From the NCBI GenBank assembly GCA_021018995.1, contig CM037587.1, positions 6,140,866 to 6,204,865 on the forward strand: 64,000 bases of DNA. Direction: 5' to 3'. The notes under the pieces are model-generated. The model made no database searches. It saw only the letters and a program-made list of their open reading frames with translations, and was not told the origin of the DNA. Below are positions 1 through 51,704 of this stretch, piece by piece. The translations under genes were made by a program, and so were the position numbers. Origin of the DNA: Chloranthus sessilifolius. Taxonomy: Eukaryota > Streptophyta > Magnoliopsida > Chloranthales > Chloranthaceae. Each line of letters opens with the position of its first letter. Position 1 is the first letter of the stretch.

Positions 1-2611
1 GATGGGTCGATGCGGCTATGCATTGACTATCGGCAATTGAACAAACTCACTGTGAAGAACCGCTACCCTTTGCCTAGAATAGACGATCTATTCGACCAAC
101 TGCAAGGAGCAAAGTATTTTTCCAAGATCGACGAGATCAGGTATCATCGATTCTTGAGTCAAAGCGAGGACATTAGGAAGGCGACTTCGGACCGGTATGG
201 ACACTATGAATTCCTTGTGATGCGTTTGGATTAACGAATGCTCGGCGTCATTTATGGATCGATGAGCGAGTGTTTAAACCACACTTGGACTCTGCGTTGT
301 AGTGTTTGTTGATGACATACTAATATACTCCAAATCCAAGGCGAAACCACGAAGAACATTTGAGGATTGCTCTCTGACGCTTCGTGAACACCAATTATGC
401 AAACTCGGCAAGTGTGAGTTTTGGTTGAAGAAGTTAGCTTTTGGGACATGTCGTCTCAAAGCATGGTGTCACTTGTAGATCGGCAAAGATAGAAGCGATG
501 GTTAAATGGGAGCAACCAAAAAGCGGTGGCCGATGTCGGAAGTTTTACGGGCTTAGCGAGGCTATTATCGGCGTTTAGTTGAGGGGTTTTCAAAGATATC
601 GGGACCTCTCACAAAGTTGACACGTAAAGATTCAAGGTTTGAGTGGAGTGAGGCATGCGAGAAGAGTTTTCAAGAACTCAAAGCGAGACTCACTTGCTCC
701 GATGATTAGCGATTCCTTGAGCGATGGAGGATCGCATGTCTGATGACGCGTCATACAATGGCCTTGGTTGTGTGCTCAACCAACACAAGAAGGTGATAGC
801 TTACGGATCAAGACAGTTGAAGGAACACGAGAAAAATTACCCGACTCATGACTTAGAACTAGCAGCAGTCATTTTTGCGCTGAAGATTTGGAGACATTAC
901 TTGTATGGTGAGACATTTGAAATTTTCACCGATCATAAGAGCCTCCGATACTTGTTTACACAGAAAGAGCTCAACATGAGACAACGTAGATGGATGGAAT
1001 TCCTCAAGGATTACGATTGCTCTATACAATACCATCCTGGCAAGGCGAATGTAGTGGCCGATGCATTGAGTCGAAAGGGTTCAGCTCAGTTAGCTTCTTT
1101 GATTTTGGGTATGCACCGATGGAAATTATTGGAAGACCTGGCACTCTATGATGCGAACATTGAGTCAAAGGACACTGGATCCTTTTTGGCTAACATATCC
1201 GTAAAGCCAGTGATATTTGAGCATATCCACGATCTACAGATGAAAGATCCGACATTAACAAAGATTCATCAAGACGTGAGTGAAGGCATCAGGTCGGACT
1301 TCTCATTAAAAGAAGATAGTTCTTTGTTGTTTAAAGGCCGGCTCTGCATTCCGGATAATGTCGATCTAAGACGGGCGCTCCTTGATGAGGCCCATAAGTC
1401 AAAATATGCTATCCACCAGTAGCACCAAAATGTACCAAGATTTGAAAAAGAATTTACGGTGGAAGGATTTGAAACAAGATGTGGCGAGTATGTGTCACGA
1501 TGTTTGACTTGTCAGCAGGTGAAGGTTGATCATAGACATCCTGCTGGACTATTGCAACCGTTACCAATACCAGAGTGGAAGTGGGAATCGATCTTGATGG
1601 ATTTCATTGTTGGATTACCCGTCTTGCCAAGAGACTGCCATTTGGCCGTCAGAGATCGATTGACCAAATCAACAGACTTTTTGCCGTATAACACTACGAT
1701 ACAAGCAGAAGATCGATTTATACATGAAGGAAATTGTAAGATTACATGGTATTCCAAGCATAGTTTCGATCGTGATCCACTATATACGCCCAAGTTTTGG
1801 AAGAAATTTCAAGAAGGAATGGGAACACGACTAGACTTTAGTTCATTTTTCCATCCTCAAATGAGCGAAAAAAACTAAGTGATAGAAGACATGCTCAGGC
1901 GCATGCTTGATATGCAAGGATACCGGGATGAGTATCCGCCGATGCTCGAAGTTCGGATATAATAACAGCTTTTCAAACGAGCATTGGCATGGCACCGTAT
2001 GAAGCTCAGATGGACGACGGCAAGTCACCTCTCAATTGGGAGGAAACAGTGAGAAATTTGTATTAGGACCAAAGCTACTTGAAGATAACGCTACCGCTTG
2101 CTCAATAATTAGAGAAAGGTTGAAGACAAAGACAGAGTAGATGTAAAAGTTACGCGATATGAAGCGGACTAGTGTTGACTATAACGTGGGCGAGCACGTG
2201 TTTGTAAAAGTATCACCTATGAAAGGTGTAATGAGATTTGGAAAGAGAGGGAAGTTAAGTCCACGTTATGTTGGACCGTTCGAAATTTTGGGCCGAGTAG
2301 GTGAAGTTGCATATCGTATTGGTTTACCACCGCTATTTGATCGAGTGCATAATGTTTTCCACATATCGATGCTCAGGAAGTACGTAAATGATCCGTCTCA
2401 TTTATTAGGGAAGCAACCTATAGAGATGTGTGAGGACATGAGCATGATAGAGGAACCAGTGGAGATTTTGGATCGAAAAGAACAAGTACTGCGCACTAAA
2501 GTGATTCCCTTAGTGCTTGTCCGGTGGAATAATCATCCAAAAGAAGAGGCTACTTGGGAACGAGAGGCCGATGTGAAGGAACAATATCCAGCCTTGTTTC
2601 CAACGACGTGA
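1..2611 (+). pseudogene. pol: Degenerate Ty3/gypsy pol (RT, RNase H, integrase, chromodomain)
   Basis: RT begins at the window edge with the block [12 protein letters not shown] and [15 protein letters not shown], then frameshifts. The VFVDD active-site box is still legible near 300-320 in another frame. RNase H is nearly intact at 724-1100 ([43 protein letters not shown]). The integrase zinc-binding part and core follow at about 1330-1880 (CLTCQQVKVDH, WESILMDF, RDPLYTPKFW) with several frame breaks. The C-terminal region 2159-2611 keeps an SH3-like segment (GKLSPRYVGPFEIL) and a chromodomain-like end (LVRWNNHPKEEATWE...YPALFP). The domain order RT-RH-IN-chromodomain is the Ty3/gypsy chromovirus order. 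At least five frame disruptions make this a pseudogene. Confidence 0.95.
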
Positions 2612-2730
2612 GAATTCGATGTAAACCGCAAACGTAGTTGCGAAATCTCCACGATATTGGTAATTCAATGGAAATTTTGATCCAAATTGTTCAATGGAAA
2701 CTTTTGTGAAATTTTCATTAATTGAGACAT

Positions 2731-3338
2731 TTCGACTAGTCGAATTGACAATTCGACTAATCGAAAGTCAAAACTGACTAATCGACTGACTATGCCAGTG
2801 AACCAGAGTCCAAAAAGAATAAGTTAGAAAATTTCGACTAGTCGAACTAGGGTTCGACTAATCGAATTTGGAATTTCGATTAGTCGAATTCACATTTCGA
2901 CTAATCGAATTACTTAAAGAGTCTAAAAGAAATTTCTGAAAGTGGACAATTCGACTAGTCGAAAGGGAAATCGACTAATCGAATTGGACATAAAGGGAAA
3001 ATCGATTAGTCGAAAATTTGCATTCGACTAATCGAGTTATGGAGGGAGTTGTAGAAGTTTAAAAAGGGCACACGATTTCGACTAGTCGAATTATTTTTCG
3101 ACTAGTCGAAGTTAAAATTTCGACTAATCGAAACGGATTTCGACTAGTCGACTGAGTCCTTCCAGTGGGCTCCAAAGTTAGAATTTGAACCCTAAGCATT
3201 TCGACTGATCGAAATGGGATTTCGACTAGTCGAAATCGAAGCCGACTAGTCGAATTAGGAAAATCGACTAATCGAATTCGGGGAGTCCCTTTAAGTTTGA
3301 AATTCGACTAGTCGAACTGAGAAATTCGACTAGTCGAG
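2731..3338 (+). repeat. Internal array of TTCGACTAGTCGAA palindromes (about 22 copies)
   Basis: Between the pol stop (2611) and the aORF start (3573) lies a dispersed array of a 14-bp palindrome, TTCGACTAGTCGAA, at spacings of mostly 19-40 bp. Examples: 2731, 2833, 2950, 3077, 3097, 3221, 3303. Frequent variants change one or both central bases by transitions (GACTAATC, GATTAGTC). Short non-palindromic spacers recur too: ACTGA...CCAGTG follows copies near 2787 and 3152, which suggests a higher-order unit. The same motif makes a second array in the LTR (5988-6392). No coding potential is seen. The function is unknown; see findings. Confidence 0.93.
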
Positions 3339-3342
3339 CCAA

Positions 3343-3353
3343 CCACTATATAT
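3343..3353 (+). promoter_or_regulatory. Possible TATA box of the aORF
   Basis: CTATATATATG follows directly after the last palindrome of the array and lies about 220 bp upstream of the aORF ATG (3573). This spacing would fit a separate promoter for the aORF with the array as upstream element. It is inference only: elements 2 and 3 show no equally clear TATA box here. Confidence 0.3.
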
Positions 3354-3572
3354 ATGTGAAAGGGGGTTTTCAACCCATTCGACTTTTGAGTTTTTGGGCA
3401 TCCGATTCCTCTTCTTCCCCGGTGATTCAACTACCTAGGGTTTGCACCATTTCCGACCATTCTCGACCGGATTTGACTTCACACACCTTCTCAAGATTGG
3501 GTAAACCCTAATCTTTGTTTTTCTTCATATTTTTTCATATAAGAGACCCTATTTCCTTGCGTTTTAGCGAGA

Positions 3573-5120
3573 ATGCCGCCTAAAACTCGATTATCATCGA
3601 AGAGGGCAGTTTCAAAAGCGCACGCGCAAAACGCCGCACCACCACTAACCCCTTCACCGTGAGGACACCCTCACCATCGACATCGGACACTACGTCCGGG
3701 TCGACGAGCGCGTCTTCACATGACGCAAGCCCTATTCCACCACCACCCGTCAACCCTGAGCAACCCACTGAGTGGTGGGCAGCCAAGGTCTTTGAAGTCG
3801 AACACATTTTCGACAAGACTCTTTTTGACAAGGATGTGGTCCAAGGTGAGACCATATGGGCCCTAAACTACCTCAACAACGCCGGTCTCACCTTCCTCCT
3901 CAAACCAATCCGAAAGTTCTACTACCTGCGATTGGTTAGGTTATTTTACCAGGGCCTCAAGGATGGCCCTACTGACGACGTGGTGAAGACCACGATTGAG
4001 GGTCGTGAATACCTCATCACACGTCGTCATGTCCAAGAAGCAGTCGAGTGCTACTTGGACTATATACCCGAGACCACATTTCTACCACCCTTCCCAGAGC
4101 CGGCCAATGTCGAAGATATCCTTGCCGACATGACCAAGGGGAAAAAGGGATCGGGCACCTCGTCTAAGAGGGTTGACCTTCCACATTATATGTGGATGCT
4201 CGATTCTGTTTTTCACGCCAACCTTTACCCCATGCGCCACAGCACCGAGCGTGTCGAGTTGGTGCAACAGGCCCTCTATGCGGCCTATAACGGCCGATGG
4301 TTTGACGTTACCTTAGTCATCCTTGAAGGGATGAGGTACATCAAGGGGAAGCTCATGAAGGGCAACCTTCGAGCTAGGGATGGGATGCCCTACGCATCAT
4401 CTCTAGCATTCTAGAGGCATAACTTATGCCGCCCCACCCCACGAGGCGACGGCCACCGATCCGGTGAAACCATTCTCCCACACCGAATGGAACAGGAGTT
4501 ACAATCTCCTGAAGAAGACTTTACCACCACCAGCTGGCGCAGCCGAGGACACAGCTACAATCCCACCACCACCCCCTCCACCACAGCCACAGCCACAAGT
4601 ACCTGTAGATGGCGCAAGACACCCCCACTGCGTTCCACCATGCACCGCACCACCATTCCACTATCACCACCGGCTACACCACCACCACCACCTCGACCTA
4701 CACCGCACCTCTACTTCACGTCACGACCACCTGACCACCACCACCACCATTGAGGAGGCTGCCCGCCGAGGCCGAATGGAAGCCAATAACGAGAGGATGA
4801 ACAGAGAATTAATTTCCTCATGTTTCACACCTCAAGTTTATCTACCCTCCCGCTTGAAGAAGAATGGACCGCCGGCACCACAGCCTTTCATCAGGGCCCG
4901 GTCTTTAGGACGCGATTACATGATGCCGGTGCTTCTACTTCCACCGCACCCCCACCATCGACGACGACGCAGCCACCATCTACTTCCACTACCATTCCAC
5001 CGGCCCTTGATCGACAGAGACTTCTCATCCGCTACCGCCACCAGCCATCCAGCCACCCGTGGCAGATCAGCTGACTCCGTCGACCAACCGCCTTCCGATC
5101 CACCACCAGGGCGGGGCTGA
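3573..5120 (+). pseudogene. Accessory ORF (aORF) of element 1, plant transposon protein type
   Basis: The ORF starts with ATG at 3573 (MPPKTR..., basic N terminus). A frame break near 3655 leads into a 251-residue open stretch to 4414. It contains WWAAKVFE, GLTFLLKPI, YYLRLVRLFYQGL and GREYLITRRHVQEAVE. After a stop at 4414 and a frame change, a Pro/His/Thr-rich low-complexity part follows, with a short charged helical stretch (EEAARRGRMEANNERMNREL). The end is at 5120. Elements 2 and 3 and the copy at 60010 share the basic start and the WWA...LVRLFY core. This matches what is usually annotated as putative plant transposon protein domain; I assign that name from memory of the family, and no biochemical function is known to me. 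It lies in sense orientation between pol and the 3' LTR. Confidence 0.75.
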
Positions 5121-5414: not shown

Positions 5415-7859
5415 TGTAATAACCCGAAAAATCACGTCAAACGAGGACCTCAGGATCCGTGCCCGTTTGGTCTTAGGTTTGACCATGAAATAGTTCATTG
5501 ATGAACTTAAGATGAGATGAGCGGATGTGATGTGTGAACCAGTGTAGAAGAGTGGAGAGATAGAGGGGTGTGTTGAGTAACATACACCGATGTGTGTGTA
5601 TGTGCTCCACACCGAGAAAAGAGATAAGATAAAAAGGGTTGAAAACCCTAATTTTCATATTTTGGTTGTTGAGAGGAGTAAAGAAGAAAGAGAGGAGTAA
5701 AGGAGCTAGTGAGGAGTTATTGCAAGTTGTTGGAAGGGGATTTCTTGCGATCAAAGCGCCGGATTCGACGCGGGAGATCTGTTCAGACAAAAGCTGGAAA
5801 CCCTAACCTTCCAACCCTACATTTAAATCAAATTGAGGTTGATTTAAGGTGAGATTCTTGTAAATAAATGGTGTAGGTTTATAGAATAAATTGTGGTTAA
5901 AATGGGTGGAAATTGTAGGAATATTGCTTAGAAAATAACTGAGAAAAGATTGGGGAAGAACAGCCAAAGAAGGCTGAATCTGGGGATTTCGACTAATCGA
6001 AATTGGGATTCGATTAATCGAAATTCCCCAAGAAGTTGAAAAGTCAGATGACCATTTAATTGACTAATCGAATTGAATTTCGATTAGTCGACTTTAAATT
6101 TCGACTAGTCGAGTTGGGTGTCGACAAGTCGACTGAGAGCCGCCAGTGAGGAGAAAAAATGGGTTAAGGAAATCGACCAATGAATTGGATTTCGACTAGT
6201 CGAGTAAGGATTTCGACTAATCGAATTGGACTCGATTAGTCGATTTTGTATGTTCAATTATTTAAGGGAAAACTGGACAGTTAGAACAGGGGATTTCGAC
6301 TAATCGATTTGGAGAATCGATTAATCGAAATTGGACCTCGACTAATCGATTTTGAGAATCGACTAGTCGAGTTGGATTTCGACTAGTCGACTGACTTAGT
6401 TTTTGTTGACTTTTGATTCTTACTTCAAGATTCTAGGGGGGTCTTGAGACTTATTCATTACATCTTTTGTGACGTTTCGAGTGTGTTTAATGGTATCATA
6501 GGTGATGCGTATGAAAGTGGGCACAAGGAGCCGAGTGGGACCTTGATGCATTGAATCAATAGAGACCTAAGGTAGGGAACACCTTGAACATGTACTTTAT
6601 TTTACAAGAGCATGTATGTAATGATATAGATTTCCATTTAAATATTTTTACTGCTTAAAGAATTGTGAAAAGTGTGGGTGTGTGACATTCATAAGAGTAA
6701 ACTAATGAGCCACCGCGAGGGGATGAAGAAGTAAAGAGATAAGAGCATCAGGTGTGATGCAAGTAAATGGATACATCCCAGGGATGTATCCAAGGATTGA
6801 ATCATGTTTGATAGGGCCTAACTGATATAAGATAGCACACTTACACGGTGAATAACTATATGTAAGGCACCGATATTTTTATTATTTGAGGTTTGATAGG
6901 TTACCCCACCGACGTGGCGGGATATCCACGACTGACACGGCAGGATATCCGTGACCGATACGGCGGCGAAACCGTAGGCGCGAGGCTTATCCAGACATAG
7001 TAAGCACACCCGTGTGTTGATTGAGACAAGTGAAACCCCGCCACCAATCCCCAGGGGAAAGGGGCTTGGGTACTATATGGTATTCCCAGGGAATACATTA
7101 AAACTGTCTATATAGATGACGATGAAGGGTATCTCATCGGGGCTCGATGCTATATTGCTCGGGGATTACTTAAGTTGAAAGTTTAAGTTTTGCTTTAGGC
7201 CTTTTCAGCATTATTCATGAGTAAATGAAAACATAAGTAATCAACAGTAAAACGAATGCTTTCTAACTGTTTCATTAACAATTGCATAGATACATCATGC
7301 ATGGCATATCATAGAATATATGTGAGTTATAATTTATATGTTCAACAGTGTTTGTTCCCTATTGAGCTAGGATGTAGCTCACCCTATAGACTATACGTCG
7401 CAGGTCCACTACTAGCAGCTGCCGCGGCTTCAGGAGACGCTGATCCCGGCGAGTCGGACCTTGCGGCCGGTGACGAGTTGGAGCCACCTCCAGAGGACTT
7501 CTTCTAGAGGACTCCGCTGTGCCACTTTGAGGGATTTTACAGAGAGTTTTGTACGGCTTGGTATGTCAAGCCTTGATTTTGTGAAAACCATGTATATAAG
7601 GTTTTGGATTATTCTTTTGGGACGAACCATCCGTGATGATTTCTATCATCGATGGTTCGGATCGGTTCTCCATTCATGTAGGGGCATGAGGGTAGAACTG
7701 TCTTTTGGAAAGTTAATTAATATAGATTTAAATTCCGCAATTTCATTTATAGTACTTTTGATGCTTGATATACCAGTGTTCCGTGTTTAGCTAAGGGCAC
7801 GGTCAAGATGATCGTGCTGATGGCACGGGTTTCGGGGTGCCGAAATCCGGGCTGTCACA
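5415..7859 (+). repeat. 3' LTR of element 1 (2445 bp)
   Basis: The LTR begins TGTAATAACCCG after the PPT and ends GGGCTGTCACA at 7859, where sequence of the element 2 LTR starts. Reading 5' to 3' it holds the palindrome array (5988-6392), an AAGGTAGGGAACACC box (6570), a GC-rich CCGACGTGGCGGGATATCC block (6908-6990), AGCTCACCC...GACTATACGTC (7376-7402) and a CATCGATGGTTCGG hairpin box (7647). The same blocks in the same order are found in the other LTR families of this window. Confidence 0.93.
5988..6392 (+). repeat. LTR palindrome array of element 1
   Basis: About 17 copies of the family palindrome (TTCGACTAGTCGAA and the transition variants GACTAATC, GATTAGTC and GATTAATC) lie in the 5' third of the LTR. 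The recurrent spacer CTGAGAGCCGCCAGTGAG (near 6131) parallels the spacer of the internal array. Confidence 0.92.
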
Positions 7860-8639: not shown

Positions 8640-10053
8640 AGAAAAGTAGTCAGTTTGTGTACTTGTCGGCGGAGCAGATGGTCTAGGCTCCTTGGGTGTA
8701 GGTCTACGGGTTCTGGGTGGCTACGTGCAATAATCGCTCGGATCGGCAACATGCAGGCAAGCATGACCAATCATGGGGGTAGCAGTAGTAGGGTATGCTT
8801 GTTGCATCAAATGTAAAAGTATGCCCTCCTGAAAGTCCAACCGTCTATGCACCTGACGGTTGTGCTCCTCCATTCCATCCAAATGTTTGTGAATCCGCAG
8901 ATTGCTTTTCGTGAGTGCGGCTATCTCATCGGCGTCGTCAGTGGTGGGTGCCTCGTGACATCTAGATGTCCGAGCAGGAGTAGGTCGTGGGGGAGGAATG
9001 GGAGGAGGTCTAGCAGGTACATCTCCCTCAGGTGGAAGGTCGGGCTGTGCCTCTCCTAAATCGGGAGCTTGCCCTGTAGGCTCAGCCGCCCTAGCTTGTT
9101 CTTGTACCACACCTGGTTCTTTACCAATAGGTTATAACTCTTCACCCAGTCTTTAAGGTGAAAGATCTTAATATTATTATTTGATCGCGGCTCTCCCGGC
9201 GCCATGCTATAATCGGCTCATATGGCGTTATATTGCTCGACCATGCACGTAATCAATCGAGCGTACAACATTTCTTTCTTCGGCACGACCTTCTTCTCAG
9301 ACATACTATCCATGACATTTAGCATGCCATCTATTACTACGTTGGCAACGGAAAGCCAACGGTTCTCAAAAGCCGAAAATAAAGCCTGCTGTACTACTCC
9401 ACTACGCTCAGATTTGTGCAAAAATGGGTAGACAGTACACTTGATAAAAGTATCAAGCATCCATAGGTTATCAGGGAGTTCTGCGTGGGTAATAGATTGA
9501 CTCGATCCAGTAGACCATGCGTCATCTTAGCAACGACGTCATGGTATGGCACATCCTTAATGTATGGTGGCAACGAGCCACACGTTTCAACATACCCAGA
9601 GGGGCATTGCAAGGCCGCGACTACATGAAATTGGTTAAACTTATACTCAAGCCCGCCAATTTTGGTGGTTAATTGGTGATGGTCGTTGCCCCGTCAAAGG
9701 TATTGATAGAATAGTCAAACTATTCTAGGGCAGTAGTGAGTGTGGAAGGGTTTATGCATAGGTTGCAAGCCTAATTTTGTTATGTAGGCGATCGCCCAAC
9801 TCATTTCGGGTTGATCCTCAAATAGTGTAGGGGTAAAAGAATATTCGGATAGAAAAGTCTTTGAAGCCCACCACTCCTTAGGATGTTCTCAGTTAATTTG
9901 TGGCGGTTGTGGTGGTTGGACGGGTGGCACGATTGGGTCGGGTGGTTCCATAGGTTGCACAATGGGTTGTGCGGCTGGTTTGACGGGTAGCGCGGATGCA
10001 CGAACCCGCGAAGTAGGGACCTTGTGCAAAACATTCTTGATTCGAGGTCCCAT
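8640..10053 (-). pseudogene. aORF of element 2
   Basis: The ATG is at 10053 (MGPRIKN, as in element 3). A Pro/Gln-rich stretch, then EEWWASKTFLSEY, then GLEYKFNQFHVVAALQCP (about 9660) and FCTNLSVVE/LHKSERSGVVQQALFSAFENRW (about 9380-9440) follow, with several frame changes. The C-terminal part (8721-9110) is open and contains a Pro-rich linker and a predicted helix (DEIAALTKSNLRIHKHLDGMEE, HRRLDFQEGILLHLMQQ). The homologous segments of element 3 have the same order. It is sense-oriented, between the palindrome array and the PPT. Function unknown; broken by stops and frameshifts. Confidence 0.75.
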
Positions 10054-10267: not shown

Positions 10268-10533
10268 ACAACTTAAATCGATAGATTCGATCGATCAATC
10301 TTCAAATTTGATCGATCGGATTTCAAAAGAAATAACCTAACCTGATAGATTTGATCGATCAATTCTTTAATTTGATCGATCAAATTTTTATTTGATCAAT
10401 CAAATTCTTAAATTTGATCGATTGGATAGTTCAAAAATAGCACCGAGCCCAATAAGTTTGATCGATCAATTCTCAACTTTGATCGATCGGATTACAGTTT
10501 TGATCGATCAAATTTTAAGTTTGATCGATCGAA
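10268..10533 (-). repeat. Internal palindrome array of element 2 (TTTGATCGATCAAA type)
   Basis: About a dozen copies of TTGATCGATCAA and one-base variants (GATCGATCGGA, GATCAATCAAA, TCGATCGATCAA) lie between the pol end and the aORF start, the same position as in elements 1 and 3. Confidence 0.9.
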
Positions 10534-14395: not shown

Positions 14396-14559
14396 CTTGG
14401 ATGACATCGTTCGATGCCTGCGCATCAGTTGCTGTGACGACATATGCTCGACCTTGAACAATAGGTCGAGAAGATCTTTGGGTGGACGGTGATCTAGTTC
14501 TCTCTTTACTGTCCTCAGGACAATTCCTGACCATGTGGCCCATCTTGTCACACCTAAAG
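14396..14559 (-). pseudogene. gag: gag C-terminal fragment of element 2
   Basis: This is the end of gag after the zinc knuckle: the text matches the element 3 gag (LVRNCPEDSKERS..., YAVTA.D.....DVIQG) up to the insertion point of element 3 in the knuckle itself. The five bases TAAAG (14555-14559) are repeated at 29711-29715, where the same gag continues. Confidence 0.85.
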
Positions 14560-17259
14560 TGTGACAGCCCGGATTTCTATGCCCAGAAATCTGTGCCATC
14601 AGGATCATACTCTGGATGATCCTCGGAACGAATCATAAAGTGTCTGCTCGTATAGCGGAACCCAAGCAGACACTTTTCAGCAGTGGTAGGTCGAGTCATC
14701 ACATAAAGCATTGAAAATAAAAGAATAATAAATAAATAACATGATTCTATTTATCAAAAGAATATACATTCTCAAAAAAAAGGAACCAAGAAGAATCATT
14801 GGTGATGGACATCCATCACCCAAACAATGGTTCCCGATAATGGTTCTAATAGAATGTATAAAATCAAAAAAATACAATATAGATAGTAATATAAGTATAT
14901 ACATGTAGACAGTGGCCACCAGGCACACAAAATAATCCGGGATATCCACAATGCAAATATGAGACTCAGTACCCAGGCAACGAATAGAACTCGTCCGCCT
15001 GGATGTCTGTCTCCTCGTCCTCGGCCTCAGCCTCTAGATCAGGCTGGTAATCTGGGTCACTCTCAATGCCGGGAAGTACAGCCTCAGAACCTAAAAGTGG
15101 TTTAGAAAGCAGGGTGAGCTACATCATAGCTCAATAGAAGAATTTCAACTAAATGAATTGAATATGCAGATCAAGCTATCTCAAAATAGGAATCAAATCA
15201 GAAACATACAATCATGACGAATCAAATCAAATACTGAGCTTTTAGACAAGAAATCAGATGTTATGCAAGTATATGATAAGAGAACTTAAATTGTGTATGT
15301 TTAACTTAAGAAACTCCCGTGACTATATAGCACGGAGTAAACAGGAATATTTCGATAGGAAACCCCAACCAATCGTCGTTCACATGAACAATTTTGAATT
15401 GCAACAATGCCTCATCTATGGAGTGCAATTATGCCGAGGGATTACAAGCAGACGCATAAGTGTGCCAGGCATTGGATATACCGCCGAGTCGGTGGGGATC
15501 ATCTGGTTAAATCATCAAATCACATACACATAGACCTCACAGATCAGATAACAGAAATCAGAAGCAAGTTTCAAGAAGCAAATCAGGAAACAGAAATCAG
15601 AGATAGCAGGAATTTATGATATGCTTACATGCTTGTTAAAAATCAAACGTAATGATATGAAATAAATATGAAATCAAACTCAAAAACAGTTTAGGTTGGT
15701 TTTCCCCTACCTCAGGTCAAAATATCTTCTTAGCAAATCCAAAGCTTTTCAAGGCGTCAGGTTTTGATCCTAGACCATAAACACAGCATTCTACACGTCA
15801 GGAATGTCGGCATATGAACTGGCACAGTGTCCAGTAGTATTCAACTCACAAAATTAACACAGGCCAAAAACAGGGGTGATTGATCGATCACCACTCTTAT
15901 TGATCGATCACCACTCTTATTGATCGATCAATCTTTCTTGTTGATCGATCAATAACCCCATTGATCGATCAATACCCTCTTAGCTTTCATCCAGGAACAT
16001 AGTCAATTGATCGATCAATAGACCTTATTGATCGATCACTACTCATCATTGATCGATCAATACACTTATTGATCGATCAATAACCTCTTCTCTCCTCACT
16101 TTAACACTGCCTAAAATTGATCGATCACCACTTTGGTTGATCGATCAATGCCTCCTGTTGATCGATCAATGTCCTCATTGATCGATCAATGACTTAACTT
16201 CAAAAATTCCCACCTTCTGTTCACATTTAATATTTATACAGATTGATCGATCAATGCCTTCATTGATCGATCAATACACTCCAGTGATCGATCAATACCT
16301 TTGTTGATCGATCACCAACTGTCATTGATCGATCACTTTCTTGTTGATCGATCAATACCCAGGATTGATCGATCAATGCCTAAATTGATCGATCAATGCT
16401 CTTCGAGCACTGAACTTCCAGAATTCTCAAGCTTCTGTTCACTTTTCTATCCTATATAGATTGATCGATCAATGTCTTCATTGATCGATCACCACCAATC
16501 ATTAATCGATCAATAATGACAGAACTCCTGTCATTAATGGAGGTCATCTCCAACCCTATTTCAAACCCATTTTCATTAATGGTTACCAACAACCATTAAC
16601 ACACCATCAATACACATATATGGGCCTCTCATTTGCCCCTATTTAAATACACAGACTCACCTTTATTTAGGCCCTATCGGGGTTTCGGCAATTCGATCCG
16701 GACGAGGGTGTCGGATCCGAAGCTTGAGCCGTATCTCCGTGGTGACTCCGATATGTAATGTCTCGATTTCGATTCAGCACACAGAGGTTTCACACGCACA
16801 TAGATTGTACCTGAGTTCGTTTCATTGAACTCACTTCACCTCATCTCATTCCGACTCTCGATCTCCGTAGTTCTAACCCTATTTCCTCACAAAAACACTT
16901 CCAATCTCACCTAGCCACAGATCTCTTTACTCAAGAACCAGAGGAAGAAGAAGAAAGGAGATCTCCCCAGGTCTCTTCCTTCCTTTATAAGCTACCAACT
17001 GAAATATCCTTGATATTTTAGTTTTCCCTAATTTAGGCTTCGGTGTGAAACACAAACACAGTCGATGTGGCGTAGCAAGCCGTCTCAACGTCTTACATGA
17101 CTCGGATTTAAGTGAGAATTCATACGTGAATTCACCTAATTATAGGCCAATATTATTTATAATAATAAAATTTTAAAGTTTTAAATCTGTCTCGATTCTC
17201 GTGCCGGGCATGCAGATCGAAACAGTCAGGTTCTTGTTCAGAATTTTCAGGTTATTACA
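14560..17259 (-). repeat. 3' LTR of element 3 (2700 bp)
   Basis: Plus-strand ends are TGTGACAGCCCG (14560) and AGGTTATTACA (17259). It is nearly identical to 27071-29710. Differences include a 36-bp segment near 15560-15600 that the other copy lacks and whole-unit changes in the palindrome array. The shared LTR boxes are at 14793 (hairpin box), 15102 (GGTGAGCTAC), 15481 (GCCGAGTCGGTGG) and 15704 (CCCCTACCTCAGG). Confidence 0.96.
15881..16515 (-). repeat. Palindrome array in the 3' LTR of element 3 (24 copies)
   Basis: There are 24 copies of ATTGATCGATCAAT or its half-variant TTGATCGATCACC, mostly spaced about 20 bp, in clusters. The clusters are separated by spacers that themselves recur (CACCTTCTGTTCACATTTAA at about 16210 and CAAGCTTCTGTTCACTTTTC at about 16427). 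Confidence 0.95.
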
Positions 17260-17276
17260 TTATCCCCCTTTAGGAA
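17260..17276 (-). other. Polypurine tract of element 3
   Basis: Minus strand CCTAAAGGGGGATAA precedes the LTR start TGTAATAACC. The CATTTTCGAGGACAAAAATT motif lies upstream of it. 17296-17471 is non-coding. Confidence 0.8.
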
Positions 17277-17471: not shown

Positions 17472-18909
17472 TTAGAGGATAGTAATACTGCGGACGCCGA
17501 TGGGCCGGCTCACAAAGCGAGGTCTGCTGGGATGAGGCGGTGGGATGCTGTAGTCACGAGGGTCCACCACATGCTGACGAGCGTGGGTGATCATCGGCGT
17601 GGACGTCGTGGCATATAAATGTTGCATGACCAGCTCATGCATCCCCTCGTGGTAATCTAGACGACGATGAATCTGTCGCTAGAATGCCTCCATGCCATCC
17701 AGCCGCTCGTGTATACGTCGGTTTCCCTCCACCAGCTCCCGAAGCATCGCGACGACATCGTCTGAGGAAGATGGTGGGGGATGGGTAGTGGTGTGACGGA
17801 TCGGTCGATGGAGTGTAGTGGGGGTTGGCTGTGTAGATACCTCAGGTGGAGGTGGTGGATCACGCATGGCCTCCCCCTCTCCAGATGCAGGCTCGGCAGG
17901 AGCTGAACCTCGGCGACGGTAGGTGGGATGGGCTCAGCTGCGCCCTCCTCCTCCCGAGGAAGCCGTCTAACCAATAAATTGTAACTCTTGGTCCAGTCTT
18001 TCAGTTGAAAGACTTTGGTGTTGTCGACCAAGCGAGGCTCGTGAGGAGCCAAAGTGTAGGCCTCGCGTAGAGCAGCATACTGCTCTACCAGCTTGGTGAT
18101 GAGGCGGGCATAAGGGATTTGTTTCTTAATCCCCGACTTGACCTTTTCAGACATAAGGTCATTGGCATTGATTATGCCCTCGATGACCAAATCAGCCATA
18201 GAGAACCAACGGTTCTCATAGGTCGAGAATAGTGCCTGTTGCACTACTCCAGTCCGCGAGGACTTGTGCAAAAACGGGTTAAGTGCACACTTGATATACG
18301 TATCAAGCATTCACAACCTATCAGGTAATTGGGCCCTAGATATTGATTGGCCCCTCCCGTGTTGACCCTAGGTCATCTTAGTGACCACGTCAGCGAAAGA
18401 GACCTCCTTGACGTACGGGACATCGAGGCCACGCCACAGGTCTCAACGTAAGTGGGTGGGCATTGAAGTGCTGCTGTGACGTGGAAATGGTTGAATTTAT
18501 ATTCAAACCCATCGATGGTCGTGACAAGTCGATGGAGACTGTCACCCCATCATAGGTTTTAGAAAAAGAGTCTCACAAGAAGTGGACAATAGTGGTCATG
18601 AAACGGTTCAAGCAAGGGTTTTAACCCGAGCTTTTGGATATAACCCTTGGCCCAAGCCATTTCGGGTCAGTCCTTGTAAAGCGAGGACACAAAAACGTAC
18701 TCGGGTAGGAACGTTTTAGAAGCCCACCAAGGTTTGGGGACTTCACGTTCAACGGGGAGCGGAACGGGGGTCAGAATGGGTGGTACTACGGTCGAAACCG
18801 ATGCCACAGGTGGCACGGGTGTTTGAGGAATGGGAACAGAGGGCGGTAGGGGTGTACGAGCCCAGGATGTTGGGATCTTCCGCGAAGCGTTCTTCGTTCG
18901 CGGGCCCAT
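17472..18909 (-). pseudogene. aORF of element 3
   Basis: The ATG is at 18909 (MGPRTKNASRKIP), followed by a Pro/Val-rich linker and PWWASKTFLPEYVF. After a stop near 18667 the core continues (GLKPLLEPF, LVRLFF, FEYKFNHFHV). A long open stretch is found at 18310-17657 (MLDTYIKCALNPFLHKSSRTGVVQQALFS...). The C terminus, in a different frame, has ELVEGNRRIHERLDGMEAF and HRRLDYHEGMHELVMQHLY, probably helical, and ends RSITIL-stop at 17472. Only element-to-element homology supports the gene. It is sense-oriented between the palindrome array and the PPT. Function unknown. Frame breaks make it inactive. Confidence 0.78.
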
Positions 18910-19071: not shown

Positions 19072-19411
19072 TTGATCGATCAATCTTAAAGCTTTGTGCA
19101 AATGACCGTTCGAAACCCCAAACTTTAACTTAAACCCCAGGATTGATCAATCAATGCTTTTATTGATCGATCAATGGAGCATATTTATGCCCTAAATCGA
19201 TGCATTGATCGATCACCAACCCTTGTTGATCGATCACTGACCCTTGTTGATCGATCAATGGAACCGATATTGATCGATCAATACTCCTGTTGATCGATCA
19301 ATAGCCTAACATTGGAGTGCAATCCTTCACTGTCATTGATCGATCACCTCTCTTTGTTGATCGATCAATCACTAAATTGATCGATCAATACCTCTGTTGA
19401 TCGATCAATGC
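19072..19411 (-). repeat. Internal palindrome array of element 3 (12 copies)
   Basis: There are twelve copies of (A/G)TTGATCGATCAAT or TTGATCGATCAC(C/T) between the chromodomain stop (19617) and the aORF start (18909), the same motif as in the LTRs of this element. A poly-T run (19441-19453) follows. Confidence 0.93.
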
Positions 19412-22413: not shown

Positions 22414-24841
22414 TGTGACGACCCGACTTTTCCAATCCCTCAGGTATAGGAAAGGCCGGTTCGCCAACCTATCGAATAAACGATAAGCCGGACAAACATG
22501 GCACATATCAGAGTAAAGCGTAATAAAAATCCATAGCTAAAATAAATGCGGAAGCAATTAAAAGTAAAGAACCACCGATGATGGCCGACCATCATCGAAA
22601 CATGGCTCATAACAGAAATCAACGTCAAGTATATAAAACTATGATATCCAACTAAAATGGGCCCACAAATTCAAGTCTAACTCTCACCACAAATAAGAAA
22701 ATCAGTAAGTTCTATACTGGGAAAAACTCCTCAGGAGGAACCTCAAGCTCTTCCTCAGCACGTGAGTCGATCAGCCTCACAAACGAATAGCCACGCCGAT
22801 TCGAACCTCGTGACGATAGTCGGAGTGAGCTAACCAACAAAGCTCAGTAGAAGAAAGACATCTACGACATTTTACTTTAGCTAATATAGTTTCAAAACAA
22901 ATATCGGAATATAGTTTGTCAAACATATAAGCAGATAATAAACTGAATTTAGGTGCAGAAATCATATGTAAGATTTATTTCTAAATGTGTGAAAACAGTT
23001 TCAAGAACAGTCACGGTGTTTGATGTCTTAGTTTCCCTAACTTCTATATGCAAAGTTCAGTAATTCATGACTTAATTCTCAACTTAAAATACCTCCCGAG
23101 TAAACTATATCTCGAGAGCAGGAATATAGCCGATGGGAACCCCTACCTACCATCGTCGTTCATGAACCCTTTTTCAGGATGCAACAAGCCCCTATGTAAT
23201 GAGGGAAACTTGTGCCAGGAAATTGTTCAGGAATTTTTGAGGGGTCGTTCAGGTCAATCATAAAACAAATGCAGATACTAATATAAATCAGATGCAAGTC
23301 TCTTATACATAGTTCAGGTTCTTGATTTCAGATTTTTAGAGCTTAAGCAGATTCAGGTTTCAGGATTCAGGTAGATTTAGATTTTCAGTCATTCATATCA
23401 ATTTCAATTTATAGATGTGATTTCAATGGCATATGCAAGTTTAAAGATTTTAATTCAAAATATCCATGCAAATTAAAATAAAATACTGTAAAGATGAGAT
23501 TCTCCTACCAAAACTCGGAGTAATGCGAAGTCAAGCAAAGTCCTATTGATGGCCTCTCGCCCTCAATCTACATCACAATATACGTTCATGTATTAAAGTT
23601 AACTCTAATTACTAATAATATAGACCTATTTAAGTGTTTCCTCAAAAACAAGTCAAAACAGGCAAGTTGCGCCAATCCTAGAATTTGATGTAACATTCGC
23701 ATATATTTTTGACCATCAAGACGATTGATCCATGAGTTGGTCAAAACATGAAAGTTGTAGATTTTTCTATTAGCGTTCCAACGCAAAATGAATCATCTCA
23801 ATCAGAGTTCGGGATAAAAAGTTATGACTAAAATACTAAGGCAATATCGGAGTTCGGTGATACCTCACTCGAGCGATGATAATAGCTCGCTCGAGCGATT
23901 TGATGTAACATTCTCATATATTTTTGACCATCAAGATGATTGATCCATGAGTTGGTCAAAACATGAAAGTTGTAGATTTTTCTATTAGCTTTCCAACGCA
24001 AAAAGAATCGTCTCAATCGGAGTTCGGGATAAAACGTTATGACTAAACTACTAAGGCACTATCGGAGTTCGGTGATACCTCGCTCGAGCGATGATAATAG
24101 CTCGCTCGAGCGAGCTACAGCGACGCGATTTCGCTGGTTTTCACCTGAATCGAAACCCATACATCCCAAAGCAAAACTCATGGCTAATCTAATGATTTAA
24201 TCAAAAAGTTTAATTAAAACGTACCTTTAATCTAAGGATTCCTAGATTAGAAATGAGTCACATGAATGGAGCTTCGGAATGAAACCGACGGGTTTCCTCA
24301 ACGATTCGCGCCACGATCGATCCCACGAGTTCACAGAGATAACTCCAACACGCCCCCAATGATCTCAACCTCTCCCAATAGCCAACTACGAATCCAAGGT
24401 TGATTCAAGTTCTTTCTAAGGTTTAAGTGTTTTCAACAAAGAGGGTTCTGGAGAAGGAGGTTTTCTAAACCGATCTCCTACGATGATTGAAGAAGAGAGA
24501 AGACGGAGTTTCACATGGTTGGGTAACTATCCTTTCTTAACAAAACCTAGTATAATACGGGAATGCAATTCCTTCTTATAATAGGATTGCTCACAAAGTA
24601 AAACACACACACACATCTTATGTATTATACACTTCTAATTTTAAAACTCAAGTCCGGTGTTGAGCGGCCACACCGAGGTCGGTGCACAACTTTCGCACGA
24701 GGGTCCAAATGGGCTCTAAATTAAAATCTGTCCGCACAATCACATCTAGATAAAAATCCAAAACAAATGGTGACGTCGGTTGCCGAGCCGAATACACACA
24801 CAGGGTCAGTCTAACTCGGGTTCAAAATATGGGTCTTTACA
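22414..24841 (-). mobile_element. Solo LTR in pol of element 3 (2428 bp), TSD GTTCT
   Basis: Plus-strand ends are TGTGACGACCCG and GGGTCTTTACA, flanked by GTTCT (22409-22413 and 24842-24846). RT and protease text of element 3 joins exactly when it is removed. By comparison with the full elements the LTR reads on the minus strand. The same family recurs at 29893-32523 and 49009-51442. No internal region is present, so it is the product of LTR-LTR recombination. Confidence 0.96.
23686..24115 (-). repeat. 215-bp tandem repeat with TCGCTCGAGCGA palindromes (2 copies)
   Basis: Two copies are offset by 215 bp (TGATGTAACATT at 23686 and 23901). Each unit ends with a pair of CTCGAGCGA palindromes separated by TGATAATAGC. 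The first copy has one degraded palindrome (CTCACTCGAGCGA). The sister solo LTR at 29893 has three units. Confidence 0.92.
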
Positions 24842-27055: not shown

Positions 27056-27068
27056 GGCTCTGATACCA
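27056..27068 (-). other. Primer binding site of element 3 (initiator tRNA-Met)
   Basis: The minus strand TGGTATCAGAGCC lies two bases after the 5' LTR end. It is complementary to the 3' end of plant initiator tRNA-Met. Confidence 0.95.
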
Positions 27069-27070
27069 AC

Positions 27071-29710
27071 TGTGACAGCCTGAATTTATGCACCCAAAAA
27101 TCCGTGCCATCAGGATCATACTCTGGATGATCCTCGGAATGAATCATAAAGTGTCTGCTCGTATAGCGGAACCCAAGCAGACACTTTCCAGCAGTGGTAG
27201 GTTGAGTCATCACATAAAGCATTGAAAATAAACGAATAATAAATAAATAACATGAATCTATTTACCAAAAGAATATACATTCTCAAAAAAAAGGAACCAA
27301 GAAGAACCATTGGTGATGGACATCCATCACCCAAACAATGGTTCCCGATAATGGTTCCAATAGAATGTATAAAATCACAAAAATACAATATAGATAGTAA
27401 TATAAGTATATACATGTAGACAGTGGCCACCAGGCACACAAAATAATCCGGGATATCCACAATGCAAATATGAGACTCAATACCCAGGCTACGGATAGAA
27501 CTCGTCCGCCTGGATGTCATCTCCTTCCTCGCCTCGGCCTCATCTCCTGATCAGTCGGTCACTCTCGGTCACTCAAAGGAAGTATAGCCTCAGAACCTAA
27601 AAGTGGTTTAGAAAGCAGGGTGAGCTACATCATAGCTCAATAGAAGAATTCCAACTAAATGAATTGAATATGCAGATCAAACTATCTCAAAACAGGAATC
27701 AAATCAGAAACATACAATCATGACGAATCAAATCAAATACTGAGCTTTTAGATAAGAAATCAGATGTTATGCAAGTATATGATCAGAGAACTTAAATTGT
27801 GTATGTTTAACTTAAGAAACTCCAGTGACTATATAGCACAGAGTAAACAGGAATATTCTGATAGGAAACCCCAACCAATCGTCGTTCACATGAACAATTT
27901 TGAATTGCAACAATGCCTCATCTATGGAGTGCAATTGTGCTGAGGGATTACAAGCAGACGCACAAGTGTGCCAGGCATCGGATATACTGCCAAGTCGGTG
28001 GGGATCATCTGATTAAATCATTAAATCACATACACATAGACCTCACAGATCAGATAACAGAAATCAGAGATAGCAGAAATTTATGATATGCTTACATGCT
28101 TGTTAAAAACAGAAATCAGGGCACAGATATGAAATAAACATGAAATCATACTCAAAAACAGTTTAGGTTGGTTTTCCCCTACCTCAGGTCAAAATATCTT
28201 GTAAGCAAATCCAAAGCTTTTCAAGGCGTTAGGTTTTGATCCTAGACCATAAACACAACATTCTACACGTCAGGAATGTCGGCATATGAACTGGCACAGC
28301 GTCCAGTAGTATTCAACTCACAAAATTAACACAGGCCAAAAACAGGGGTGATTGATCGATCACCACTCTTATTGATCGATCAATCCTTCTTGTTGATCGG
28401 TCAATAACCCCATTGATCGATCAATACCCTCTTAGCTTTCATCCAAGAACATAGTCAATTGATCGATCAATAGACCTTATTGATCGATCACTACTCATCA
28501 TTGATCGATCAATACACTTATTGATCGATCAATAACCTCTTCTCTCCTCACTTTAACACAGCCTAAAATTGATCGATCACCACTTTGGTTGATCGATCAA
28601 TGCCTCCTGTTGATCGATCAATGTCCTCATTGATCGATCAATGACCTAACTTCAAAAATTCCCACCTTCTGTTCACATTTAATATTTATACAGATTGATC
28701 GATCAATGCCTTCATTGATCGATCAATACACTCCAGTGATCGATCAATACCTTTGTTGATCGATCACCAACTGTCATTGATCGATCACTTTCTTGTTGAT
28801 CGATCAATACCCAGGATTGATCGATCAATGCTCTTCGAGCACTGAACTTTCAGAATTCTCAAGCTTTTGTTCACTTTTCTGTCCTATATAGATTGATCGA
28901 TCAATGTCTTCATTGATCGATCACCACTAGTCATTGATCGATCAATACCTTCATTGATCGATCAATAATGACAGAACTCCTGTCATTAATGGAGGTCATC
29001 TCCAACCCTATTTCAAACCCATTTTCATTAATGGTTACCAACAACCATTAACACACCATCAATACACATATATGGGCCTCTCATTTGCCCCTATTTAAAT
29101 ACACAGACTCACCTTTATTTAGGCCCTATCAGGGTTTCGGCAATTCGATCCTGACGAGGGTGCCGGATCCGGAGCTTGAGCTGTATCTCCGTGGTGACTC
29201 CGATACGTAATGTCTCGACTTCGATTCAGCACACGGAGGTTTCACACGCACATAGTTTGTACTTGAGTTTGTTTCATTGAACTCATTCACCTCATCTCAT
29301 TCCAACTCTCGATCTCCGTAGTTCTAACCCTATTTCCTCACAAAAACACTTCCAATCTCACCTAGCCACAGATCTCTTTACTCAAGAACCAGAGGAAGAA
29401 GAAGAAAGGAGATCTCCCCAGGTCTCTTCCTTCCTTTATAAGCTACCAACTGAAATATCCTTGATATTTTAGTTTTCCATAGTTTAGGCTTCGGTGTGAA
29501 ACACAAACACAGTCGATGTGGCGTAGCAAGCCGTCTCAACGTTTTACATGACTCAAATTTAAGTGAGAATTCATACGTGAATTTACCTAATTACAGGCCA
29601 ATATTATTTCTAATAATAAAATTTCAAAGTTTTAAATCTATCTCGATTCCCGTGCTGGGCACGTAGATCGAAACAGTCAGGTTCTTGTTCAGAATTTTTG
29701 GGCTATTACA
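27071..29710 (-). repeat. 5' LTR of element 3 (2640 bp)
   Basis: Plus-strand ends are TGTGACAGCC and GGCTATTACA. It pairs with 14560-17259. Two plus-strand blocks have been scrambled near 27520-27580 (repeated TCGGTCACTC), unlike the sister LTR. Confidence 0.96.
28351..28973 (-). repeat. Palindrome array in the 5' LTR of element 3 (23 copies)
   Basis: This is the sister of the array at 15881-16515. It differs by gain or loss of single units at three places: one unit fewer near 28360, one fewer near 28820 and one more near 28940. Confidence 0.95.
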
Positions 29711-29892
29711 TAAAGCAAGCTCTCGTGTCTCTCCTGCAGTCGTCTATTTTGTGTGGCTCTCCACACTTTGCACATGATGGAGTCGGAGAAAATGATGAGA
29801 CCCGTGAAGATCCCTATGCAATGGAAGCTCTACTAGCTAATGAACCAGAAGGTCTGAATGGCCTAGATGACACAGGCACAGATGACCTCTAG
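29711..29892 (-). pseudogene. gag: gag fragment of element 2 between two insertions
   Basis: This is zinc-knuckle and upstream gag sequence homologous to 25830-26000 of element 3 (minus strand frame with HIGHLY similar CAKCGEPHKIDDCR-type text). It is bounded by TAAAG (element 3 target) and TCTAG (29888-29892, solo LTR target). The plus-strand ORF crossing 29698-29892 is a chance frame over the junction. Confidence 0.85.
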
Positions 29893-33572: not shown

Positions 33573-36163
33573 TGTGACAGCCTGGATTTGCACACCGAAA
33601 AACTCGTGCCATCAGGATCATTGTCACCCATGATCCTTAGAACAAACACATAGAATGTTTGCTCATGTAGCGGAACTCAGAGCAAACACTATCTAAAGAA
33701 GTAGATAGAGTCATTATAAGGCATTAAAATAAAAGAAAAACTATATATATATATATATATAAAATAAAAGGTAAATGCATCCTCAAAAAGGAACCAAGAA
33801 GAACCACCGGTGATGAACAACCATCACCCAAAATAATGGTTCCAAATAATGGTTCCTATAAGATGTATACAACAATAAAATAAAAGTATCTATAGAATAT
33901 AGTACAACATAGAGTGGCCACAAGGCACAAATAATCCAGAATATCGAGTACAAATCCCAAAATACAAATCTACTATACCCAGGTTAAGGGTAGAACTCGT
34001 CGGCCTGGATATCAGTATCCTCCTCCTCCTCAGTCGAAGGTCTATACTCTAGATGCTCTCAGTCCCAGTGACACCAGCCTCAGAACCTATTGACATAAAA
34101 TCAGGGATGAGCTAACCATCTAAGGTCAATAGAAGAAACTCATTTAAATTACATTTCGACTGGAAAATATGGTTTTTAGAACATATATCATAACAAATAA
34201 TCAGAGCGGAGCAAATATTTCCAAGACCAGACATGTACAGATGTTGATATTTTTAAATAACAGAAGGCAATTACTGGATAGCAGGAATCAAATTTATGCT
34301 CAAAGTTTTCAGATGAAGTGCATACTTTATCTTTAAATGACTTAAATCATATAATTAAATAACTCCCGTGTATATATCACGTGGTAGTAAGATGTTTGTC
34401 GATGGGTAATCCCGACCATCGTCATTTAGTGAACAATTGCAGAAATGTAACAAGCCTCTGCGTAATGAGAGCAACTTGTGCGAGAGATATTACAGAGCAG
34501 ATACACGAATATCCCGCCGTGCCGGTTACGGATATACCGTCGCGTTGGTGGGATTCATCACATGAACTTTAAATCAAATACATATATATAATATCAGGAA
34601 TCAGATGCCAGATAGCATGAGTCAAGTGTCAGAAATCAGAATGACAGAATAATTCATTGATATGGAAGAATGCTTTAAGACAGAAATCAGATATGCATCA
34701 GAATACAGATGTTATGAGTCCATGAGGTCATAATCAAATACAAGTTAAGTTGAATTTCCCCTACCTCAAATCACACTTTTCTAAGCAAATAAAAAGCATC
34801 TCTAAGTGTCCCGATCTTAACCTAGACCATACGTACATTGTACTAAGTGTCAAAGTTGTCGCAAAGTCAACTGGTATGACTTACAACAGTGTTTCTCCCA
34901 GAAAACTAAAACAGACAAAACAAGAGAATTTGACCGATCAATTTCCCTATTTGATCGATCGGATCTTCAATTCGATCGATCATTTACTCAATTTGATCAA
35001 TCGGATCCCATGAACCAACGTAGACAGAACAGGAGAATTATATCGTTCATTTCTCTTATTTGATCGATCAGATTCTCAATTTGATCGATCAATTCTCAAT
35101 TTTGATCGATCGACCCTTCAGAGCCCAATTTCCAAAATTTCAGACCTCCTGTTTGTATATTGTAATATACTATTTGATTGATCATTTTCCCAAAATGATC
35201 TATCAGATTCTCAATTCGATTGATCAAATCCCAAATTTGATTGATCGAATTTATCGGGCATGAACCTCCATAAAATACCCTTCTGTTCTATAAGGTATTA
35301 TATAATTCGATCGATCATTTCTTAAGTTTGATCGATTGAATTTCAATTTGATTGATCAAATATAAAATTTGATCGATTGGATATGACAGTTTCTGTCATA
35401 AATGCAGTTCGTTATTTTTAGCCTATTTGCATCCTTTCATCAGACGATTCTCATCGAATCACACATCCATACTTACCTACCTATTAAAATATCTTAAATC
35501 TTCTTAAAGCACACAGTAACTCACTTCATTAAGGTCCTTTCGGTGGTTCACGACAGCCTTGACTCGCGGTGGGTTTCGGATCCGAATCGGAAATCTATTT
35601 GTAGTTAGTGCTCCACAGAACCAGATGTGTAGTTCTACATTTGTGTAAAGAGGCAGTTACTCACCCTCAGGACACACACTTCGCACAAACAAGATCGGCA
35701 TGTACCACTTCGCACCCTAGACTAAATGGTTTAGAATTTAAGGTTTCTCAAGGAGAGTTCTCCAGAACAGATCTAGTAGCGTGATATAACCGTGATGAAC
35801 CTCACATAAAATCACAGGTAGAAGACAGAGTAAACAGAAGGCAAGGAAAGGAAGTAGAGAAGAAACCTTAACCCTCTCCCTCCTCTTATAACCTAAATCT
35901 AAAAGTATCTCTGATATTTCACTTTTCTAAGGTTTGGTTCCGGTGTTGAGAACATTCATCGTACTCAGGCATACAACACTTCACCAAAGGTCTTTCTAGA
36001 CTTAGATTTGCGTCAGAAGTGACACATGACTTTGCCTACGCACGGATTAATAATATTGATATTATTATGATTATTTAATATTTTAAGTTTTGTCTTGGTT
36101 TCCATAAAAAGCACGCAGAACAAAATAATAAAATTTGTTTTCAAAAATTTAAGGGTCATTACA
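33573..36163 (-). repeat. 5' LTR of element 2 (2591 bp)
   Basis: Plus-strand ends are TGTGACAGCCTGG and GGGTCATTACA. Its last 240 bp match the truncated 3' LTR at 7860-8105. Shared boxes: hairpin box CCACCGGTGATG (33812), GATGAGCTAACC (34104), GCCGTGCCGGTTACGGATAT (34518) and CCCCTACCTCAAA (34758). The next base (36164) is inside element 0. Confidence 0.95.
34930..35392 (-). repeat. LTR palindrome array of element 2
   Basis: There are about 16 more diverged copies of TTTGATCGATCAAA and relatives (GATCGATCGGA, GATTGATCAAA, TTCGATCGATCA). The spacer TTTCAGACCTCCTGTTTGTA resembles the CACCTTCTGTTCAC spacer of element 3. Confidence 0.9.
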
Positions 36164-51442: not shown

Positions 51443-51704
51443 CGACCCGAGCCCGCTCCAACGCACCTACATGAGGACAAGGGTTAGACATATCAAAGCC
51501 CATCTAAGTTAGGGCCAGGCTAGGGCCTAGGATTAGGGCCTAGGACCGGGCTTAATTTTAGAGAGGCTCGGCCCTGACCCGGCCGGTTGACAGCCCTATT
51601 GACTATTTTGGCTTTAGAGATTGACCAAAGCATTTCCAGATAATATAATATGGTATACCCTTAGATTTTGATGTGGATTCTATGTATAAAACTATTAATT
51701 AGTT

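Follow-up and report, generated by a model that had tools for sequence, protein, structure and literature searches.

We report that chromodomain Ty3/gypsy retrotransposons of Chloranthus sessilifolius carry arrays of short palindromes (dyads) beside an additional open reading frame (aORF), and that array and aORF move together as a module. The window, that is, the whole stretch of DNA analysed here, is 64 kb long (C4:6140866-6204865; genome 2.17 Gb) and holds three such elements, E1, E2 and E3, each with one array in the long terminal repeat (LTR) and another, array 1, between pol and the aORF. In the reading that we prefer, and to which we give a probability of roughly 55%, these elements carry a self-recognition module like that of the VANC proteins of Arabidopsis VANDAL transposons, in which the aORF product would bind the dyads of its own element and act against silencing. 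The module would consist of phased 12-bp dyads in the LTR, the same dyads at an internal promoter, and an aORF driven by that promoter. Both SH3_Tf2-1 and a chromodomain, each above its Pfam cut-off, are found at the pol ends of E1 and E3, and a chromodomain at the integrase C-terminus is a mark of the Tekay/chromovirus lineage; to judge by sequence habit, the elements would belong to Tekay. The array coordinates given for E1, E2 and E3 in the preliminary description were borne out on re-inspection. The features are as follows (dyads counted with at most two mismatches).

2159..2611, + strand: E1 pol end with SH3_Tf2-1 and chromodomain (Pfam, above cut-off); its last part is 85-99% identical to ATTAAT-type copies in alignment
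2612..2730, + strand: E1 module boundary, from pol stop to first palindrome, across which four ATTAAT-type copies drop from 85-99% identity with E1 down to 48-67%
2731..3338, + strand: E1 array 1, 20 TCGACTAGTCGA-type dyads (9 perfect), grouped at 20-22 bp
3346..3356, + strand: TATA box of the presumed internal promoter, 8 bp past the last E1 dyad (from sequence and the genome-wide pattern, 111 versus 0 in the control)
3573..5120, + strand: E1 aORF, broken, PF20167-like, with a VANC21-like fold predicted for its relatives (start at 3573 set by eye from relatives)
5415..7832, + strand: E1 3' LTR, 95.3% identical to the 5' LTR at L009:5145-7556
5988..6392, + strand: E1 LTR array, 14 TCGACTAGTCGA-type dyads (4 perfect)
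8721..10053, - strand: E2 aORF remains (open piece 8721-9110; 9293-9873 aligns to the E3 aORF; start by eye)
10268..10533, - strand: E2 array 1, 9 TTGATCGATCAA-type dyads (4 perfect)
34930..35392, - strand: E2 LTR array, 12 worn TTGATCGATCAA-type dyads (1 perfect)
14557..17260, - strand: E3 3' LTR, 92% identical to the E3 5' LTR
15880..16513, - strand: E3 3' LTR array, 24 ATTGATCGATCAAT-type dyads (15 perfect)
17657..18909, - strand: E3 aORF, broken (open piece 17657-18310; start at 18909 by eye)
19072..19411, - strand: E3 array 1, 12 dyads (8 perfect), without a clear TATA box after the array
27068..29711, - strand: E3 5' LTR
28351..28973, - strand: E3 5' LTR array, 23 dyads (15 perfect)

First-order Markov shuffles of six of the seven window arrays gave a mean of 0.05-0.5 sites and a maximum of 3, against 9 to 24 in the real arrays. 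The palindrome had been described as different between families, and this is correct for E1 (TCGACTAGTCGA) versus E2 and E3; the latter two have the 12-bp core TTGATCGATCAA in common and differ mostly in flanking bases and wear. Many sites are imperfect, and half-and-half units such as TCGACTAATCGA are numerous in the E1 arrays.

The arrangement extends to most of the related loci examined. Among 20 loci taken from RVT_1 hits, four belong to the window lineage (reverse transcriptase, RT, >80% identical to E3), 13 to a second lineage (RT ~50%) and three are without a long RT match to E3, two of which (L012 and L013) have no gypsy integrase domains and look like long interspersed nuclear elements. 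Another 14 loci, read over 2.5 kb each and matching the window elements in the chromodomain in every case, were chosen by match range (1-204/1-205) out of the 150 best RT hits, a choice that leaves old copies under-represented. An array and an aORF match are present in 16 of the resulting 18 window-lineage loci, L035 and L042 showing neither; the dyads of L024 and L036 are imperfect and were recognised by eye. The 16 loci comprise eight of ATTAAT type, three of TTGATCGATCAA type (as E2 and E3), two of ATCGAT/ACCGAT type (L019, L043), two with ACCGGT and its relatives (L024, L036) and one of CTCGAG type (L029), E1 itself being ACTAGT. Of the six types, five conform to the frame T-CG-N6-CG-A, as does TTGATCGATCAA once its outer CG is taken as altered. 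The LTR-array dyad is the same as the array-1 dyad in all six elements in which both were seen (E1, E2, E3, L028, L029 and L019). As with VANC, a family-specific short motif is found at high density in the non-coding DNA of the element. The LTRs of E3, L028, L029 and L019 also have a conserved GAGGTAGGG(A), changed by one base in E1 and E2, roughly 0.2 kb downstream of the array; it resembles a 5' splice site.

It had been proposed to compare palindrome type with aORF clade, and the two are correlated: identities, trees and a breakpoint all connect palindrome type with the aORF and not with pol. In the chromodomain, E1 has 95-97% identity with L034, L037, L040 and L044, against 66-70% in the aORF, and its palindrome is different; between E1 and L034, the chromodomain has a synonymous divergence of 0.30 and the aORF one of 1.57. 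Similarly, L029 compared with E1 and the ATTAAT loci has 82-86% identity in the chromodomain and 34-40% in the aORF. In 75-bp windows, E1 and its four partners are 85-99% identical over the 450 bp leading to the pol stop, 80-86% at 2609-2683, 48-67% at 2684-2758, just ahead of the first palindrome (2731), and 40 to 81% beyond. In the chromodomain tree (17 rows, without L036 and L043), E1 and L029 are placed among the ATTAAT rows. In the aORF tree (19 rows, with a long-branch warning for L029), every palindrome type forms one group, except that L028 is unresolved beside E1; L035 and L042, having no palindrome type, are in neither tree. A single ATTAAT clade on the chromodomain data received p-AU 0.045 in the approximately unbiased test, the group having been defined after the trees were viewed. 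Because the palindrome follows the aORF across trees, divergence and breakpoint, array and aORF move together. A by-hand comparison of half-site distance with aORF distance across families showed a weak relation, and we claim none.

The position of array 1 suggests that an internal promoter would drive the aORF. A TATA box lies within ~12 bp of the last array-1 dyad in 11 of the 16 array loci (L019, L024, L028, L031, L034, L036, L037, L038, L040, L041 and L044); it is ~110 bp on from the array in L029 and was not seen there in L032, L033, L039 and L043. Among the window elements, E1 has such a TATA box after array 1 and E2 and E3 show no clear one there. The ATG that opens the aORF is ~200-260 bp downstream of the TATA box, where read. 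Genome-wide, the pattern TCGATTAATCGA-N4-12-CTATATATATG occurs 323 times (reversed control 0), its ACTAGT version 111 times (control 0) and TCGAN4TCGA-N4-12-CTATATA 3481 times (control 34). Of 100 ACTAGT-TATA sites listed (of 111), 41 have an E1-type aORF match 308-460 bp downstream and none is near a match of the 70-73% type, the comparison having used 149 of 151 aORF matches (96 E1-type, 53 of the 70-73% type) and copies of one family that are not independent. Among the ATTAAT sites and aORF matches listed, one of 125 sites (100 from the first of these patterns, 25 from the third) is near an aORF, of the 70-73% type, a low figure due to the incompleteness of both lists. Several ACTAGT-TATA sites (on C2, C3, C5, C7, C12 and C13) are paired on the same strand ~10.2 kb, once 8.7 kb, apart, as expected if tandem E1-type elements had a common LTR. 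In addition, GGTAA recurs ~100 bp before the aORF start in E1, E3, L024, L028, L032, L036, L037, L039 and L043 and is a possible donor site for a leader intron.

None of the window's aORF copies is intact, that of E1 being split over two frames (3659-4414 and 4464-5120). The claim that the aORF is conserved over diverged elements is supported by purifying selection: the ratio of non-synonymous to synonymous substitution rates is 0.08-0.21 in nine of 12 pairs, the other three being saturated. The E1 aORF matches PF20167 (Transposase_32) with E 4e-5 and 23.9 bits, under the gathering cut-off of 45 bits; L034 (38.1 bits), L029 (31.5) and L043 (25.4) are likewise below the cut-off and L047 (54.2) is above it, and 12 of the 14 members of alignment A1 match the family at E up to 1. 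As to whether the protein has a DNA-binding fold, a question already raised in the preliminary description, the best PDB match of the predicted aORF structure in two models is VANC21 with its target DNA, and on this modelling the aORF probably shares the VANC21 fold. Sequence similarity to VANC21 was not detected, as hmmsearch of PDB gave nothing with A1 (E up to 1) and a single unrelated protein with A2 (E up to 10). A protein search with the E1 aORF found none of 574 candidates at E 0.001, and a BFVD fold search found no match at E 0.001, the best probability among the 50 matches listed being 0.20.

Could the aORF product bind the dyads simply to activate transcription from its own LTR and internal promoter, and not to counter silencing? 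The same sites occur at two promoter positions, the inner one preceding the accessory gene, an arrangement also known from the foamy virus protein Tas, which activates both an LTR and an internal promoter (PMC8670036). Moreover, the aORFs of L019 and L029 have an acidic C-terminal tail. The predicted fold, on the other hand, matches VANC21, whose known effect is loss of DNA methylation (PMC5735166), and we consider a plain activator unlikely, if a serious candidate.

The architecture of the arrays bears on two further explanations. Neighbouring sites in 27 arrays, taken from the window and from related loci, are separated by 373 gaps, of which 258 measure 19-22 bp, many coming from related copies and thus not being independent, and further clusters occur at ~41, 56, 63 and 72 bp; the typical layout is groups of two to eight dyads at two helical turns, with longer stretches between groups. 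Agreement between units is 0.77-0.98 for the dyads, a figure inflated by picking units on their dyad match, and 0.43-0.59 for the 8-9 bp spacers, against 0.29-0.36 at random. Functionless turnover of a tandem array would agree with the variable copy number of the arrays and with Retand elements, where tandem repeats between pol and LTR are described as common (PMC11963269). Neutral repeats were nevertheless rejected, as the dyads are conserved relative to spacers that agree little above chance, the same dyad recurs in two separate arrays and the distance to the TATA box is fixed; this explanation has hardly any probability. Comparison of the E3 LTRs with each other shows differences in 2 of 264 dyad columns and in 9 of the 386 remaining array columns, too few for further inference. 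Alternatively, the palindromes could act as RNA, forming hairpins or mediating dimerisation or packaging of the genomic RNA, with family specificity through base pairing. Self-complementarity would by itself yield uniform dyads in each family, and E1 array 1 as RNA folds much better than its shuffles (z -13.2, equalled by 0 of 20). Such folding is, however, trivial for palindromes, pairing leaves the CG-N6-CG frame, the 20-21 bp phasing and the fixed TATA distance unexplained, and an Rfam scan of window positions 1-36000 gave no match, making an RNA role improbable. In the longer spacers of array 1 and the LTR arrays of E1, L028 and L017, a second motif, approximately CTGR-N6-7-CCAGTG, recurs and could be a second binding site.

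Arrays also occur without an aORF. In the second lineage, at least two exact CGCTCGAGCG or CGGACGTCCG dyads were found in ten of the 13 loci, not in L015, L018 and L023. LTR limits were defined for one of these ten, L022 (L045:1996-2885 and L022:3095-3996, 95.2% identical), in which an LTR array lies ~100 bp upstream of a TATA box. Its first gag ORF begins 216 bp past the 5' LTR and its pol frame stops 88 bp short of the 3' LTR, and therefore neither end has room for an aORF. The idea that every array requires an aORF in cis was accordingly rejected. A comparable case is AT9TSD1, a non-VANDAL element that has VANC6 motifs and is hypomethylated by VANC6 (PMC5735166). If the aORF-less lineage hitch-hikes in this way, each dyad type should have an aORF-bearing family. 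For CGCTCGAGCG this is L029. For CGGACGTCCG, the forecast preceded the search but was not recorded in advance; the motif before a TATA box gave 28 sites in the genome (control 1), and all three places examined (L046, L047 and L048) have ACGGACGTCCGT arrays at 20-22 and ~41 bp with a PF20167-like ORF alongside. The match of L047 exceeds the cut-off, that of L046 is in two pieces (E 1e-4) and L048 has one piece (E 0.002); L046 has arrays on both sides, one before the ORF and one, with a TATA box, 0.7 kb after it. These ORFs gave no tblastn hit to the other aORFs, and a profile comparison of A1 with the L047 ORF was weak (prob 8.7, 51 columns); PF20167 is the link between them. Of the 28 CGGACGTCCG-TATA sites, five lie within 12 kb of a same-strand aORF (57 of 125 aORF places used): one 374 bp before the aORF, two ~1 kb after and two ~7 kb before.

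A host factor common to both lineages is possible. Host dimeric factors that bind the dyads, the aORF having another role, would suit arrays located in promoters, the aORF-less arrays of L022 and the presence of CGCTCGAGCG and ACGGACGTCCGT each in two unlike lineages. A single host factor was rejected, since dyads that differ between families at equal length and phasing would need several, and the dyad type moves with the aORF across the recombination point; host recognition seems to us rather improbable overall, although together with a plain activator it makes up the leading competition to self-recognition.

Self-recognition by the aORF product, as first proposed, gains from the covariation with aORF clade, the purifying selection and the predicted VANC21-like fold. 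Four observations weigh against it. The element L022 has arrays but no aORF, a situation that the preliminary description had named among those that would refute the proposal; the core motif is the same in E2 and E3; and the dyads are palindromic and the VANC21 motif is not. Furthermore, part of the correlation between array and aORF could be due to their physical linkage, although adjacency fails to explain the same dyad in the LTR array because that array has other surroundings. Under the self-recognition reading, the PF20167-like protein would most likely bind the dyads of its own family, probably as two protomers per dyad on one helix face, and, once bound, would keep the LTR and the internal promoter in an unsilenced, transcribed state or return them to it.

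Several further repeats were absent from the preliminary description. An array at 58013-58372, outside E1-E3, has 13 TCGATCGATCGA-type sites with at most three mismatches, spaced at 20-21 bp and interrupted by gaps of 38-51. At 63398-63468 there are two TTCGATGGTCGAA plus variants, and odd-centre 13-bp dyads (TTCGATGGTCGAA/TTCGACCATCGAA) occur both here and at L010rc 3286-3450; an aORF relative (~40% identity) is found just outside the window, at L010:8799-9146. CGCTCGAGCG occurs within 215-bp repeats at 23683-24113 and 31149-31795. LTR-like insertions at 22411-24841, 29892-32523 and 49816-51445, 92-94% identical to each other, bear these 215-bp repeats; two of the three have apparent target-site duplications (by eye), and all three may be solo LTRs.

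That aORFs of retrotransposons act on silencing as VANDAL proteins do has already been speculated (PMC11728184, PMC12844716). The novelty here lies in the putative internal promoter, in the swap of the module, in elements that have the same dyads but no aORF, and in the structural match; our literature searches, mostly outside subscription papers, turned up no publication that describes phased dyads together with a cognate aORF, or a retrotransposon with a VANC fold. More tentatively, and with somewhat less than even confidence, we suggest that PF20167-type aORFs and VANC form one superfamily of transposon-encoded, sequence-specific anti-silencers across LTR retrotransposons and DNA transposons, with sites and gene exchanged between pol lineages by recombination and gene-less elements hitch-hiking via the sites. 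The role of extra ORFs in plant LTR retrotransposons is an open question, for which a concrete, testable role with cognate sites readable from the sequence is offered here. If true, element-encoded anti-silencing would extend from DNA transposons to LTR retrotransposons, a large share of many plant genomes, and the families would provide natural sets of protein-site pairs for studying the evolution of sequence recognition.

Among known systems, the 3' aORF of sunflower Athila is likewise an extra ORF of a Ty3/gypsy element, partly similar to PF20167 and predicted to be nuclear, but palindrome arrays, cognate sites or a VANC21 match are not reported in the accessible text, where the Tekay aORF is placed on the 5' side and resembles no known domain (PMC11728184). 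Retand elements have, in the interval from pol to LTR, an additional ORF and repeats that are specific to the family, but belong to a non-chromovirus lineage; their ORF is an antisense TRP28 ORF of another domain, and LTR dyad arrays are not described in the part of the source available (PMC11963269). Foamy viruses have two promoters with sites for the accessory protein Tas, the inner one close to the accessory gene (PMC8670036). They differ in being an unrelated element in an unrelated host, and activation by the aORF product is putative here, the observation being the TATA layout. We know of no phased palindromes in foamy viruses. TnpA of maize En/Spm, a class II element, offers a parallel as a transposon-encoded activator of its own element's methylated promoter. 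The closest parallel is VANC/VANDAL of Arabidopsis: the protein is encoded by the element itself, whose non-coding DNA holds arrays of short motifs specific to the family, these motifs also occur in an unrelated element that has no such protein (AT9TSD1 for VANC6; PMC5735166), and the VANC21 fold is modelled for the aORF. By contrast, the host here is an LTR retrotransposon with gag-pol, chromodomain and LTRs, not a Mutator-like transposon; the 12-bp motif is palindromic, with a phasing of two helical turns, and that of VANC21 is given in the same source as the non-palindromic YAGTATTAY in one orientation (PMC5735166); the sites lie at a putative internal promoter; and the aORF is known from sequence and models. 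Because it lies outside a VANDAL element, has a palindromic motif and showed no sequence kinship in our searches, we do not file the aORF as a VANC; it probably works like VANC and shares its fold.
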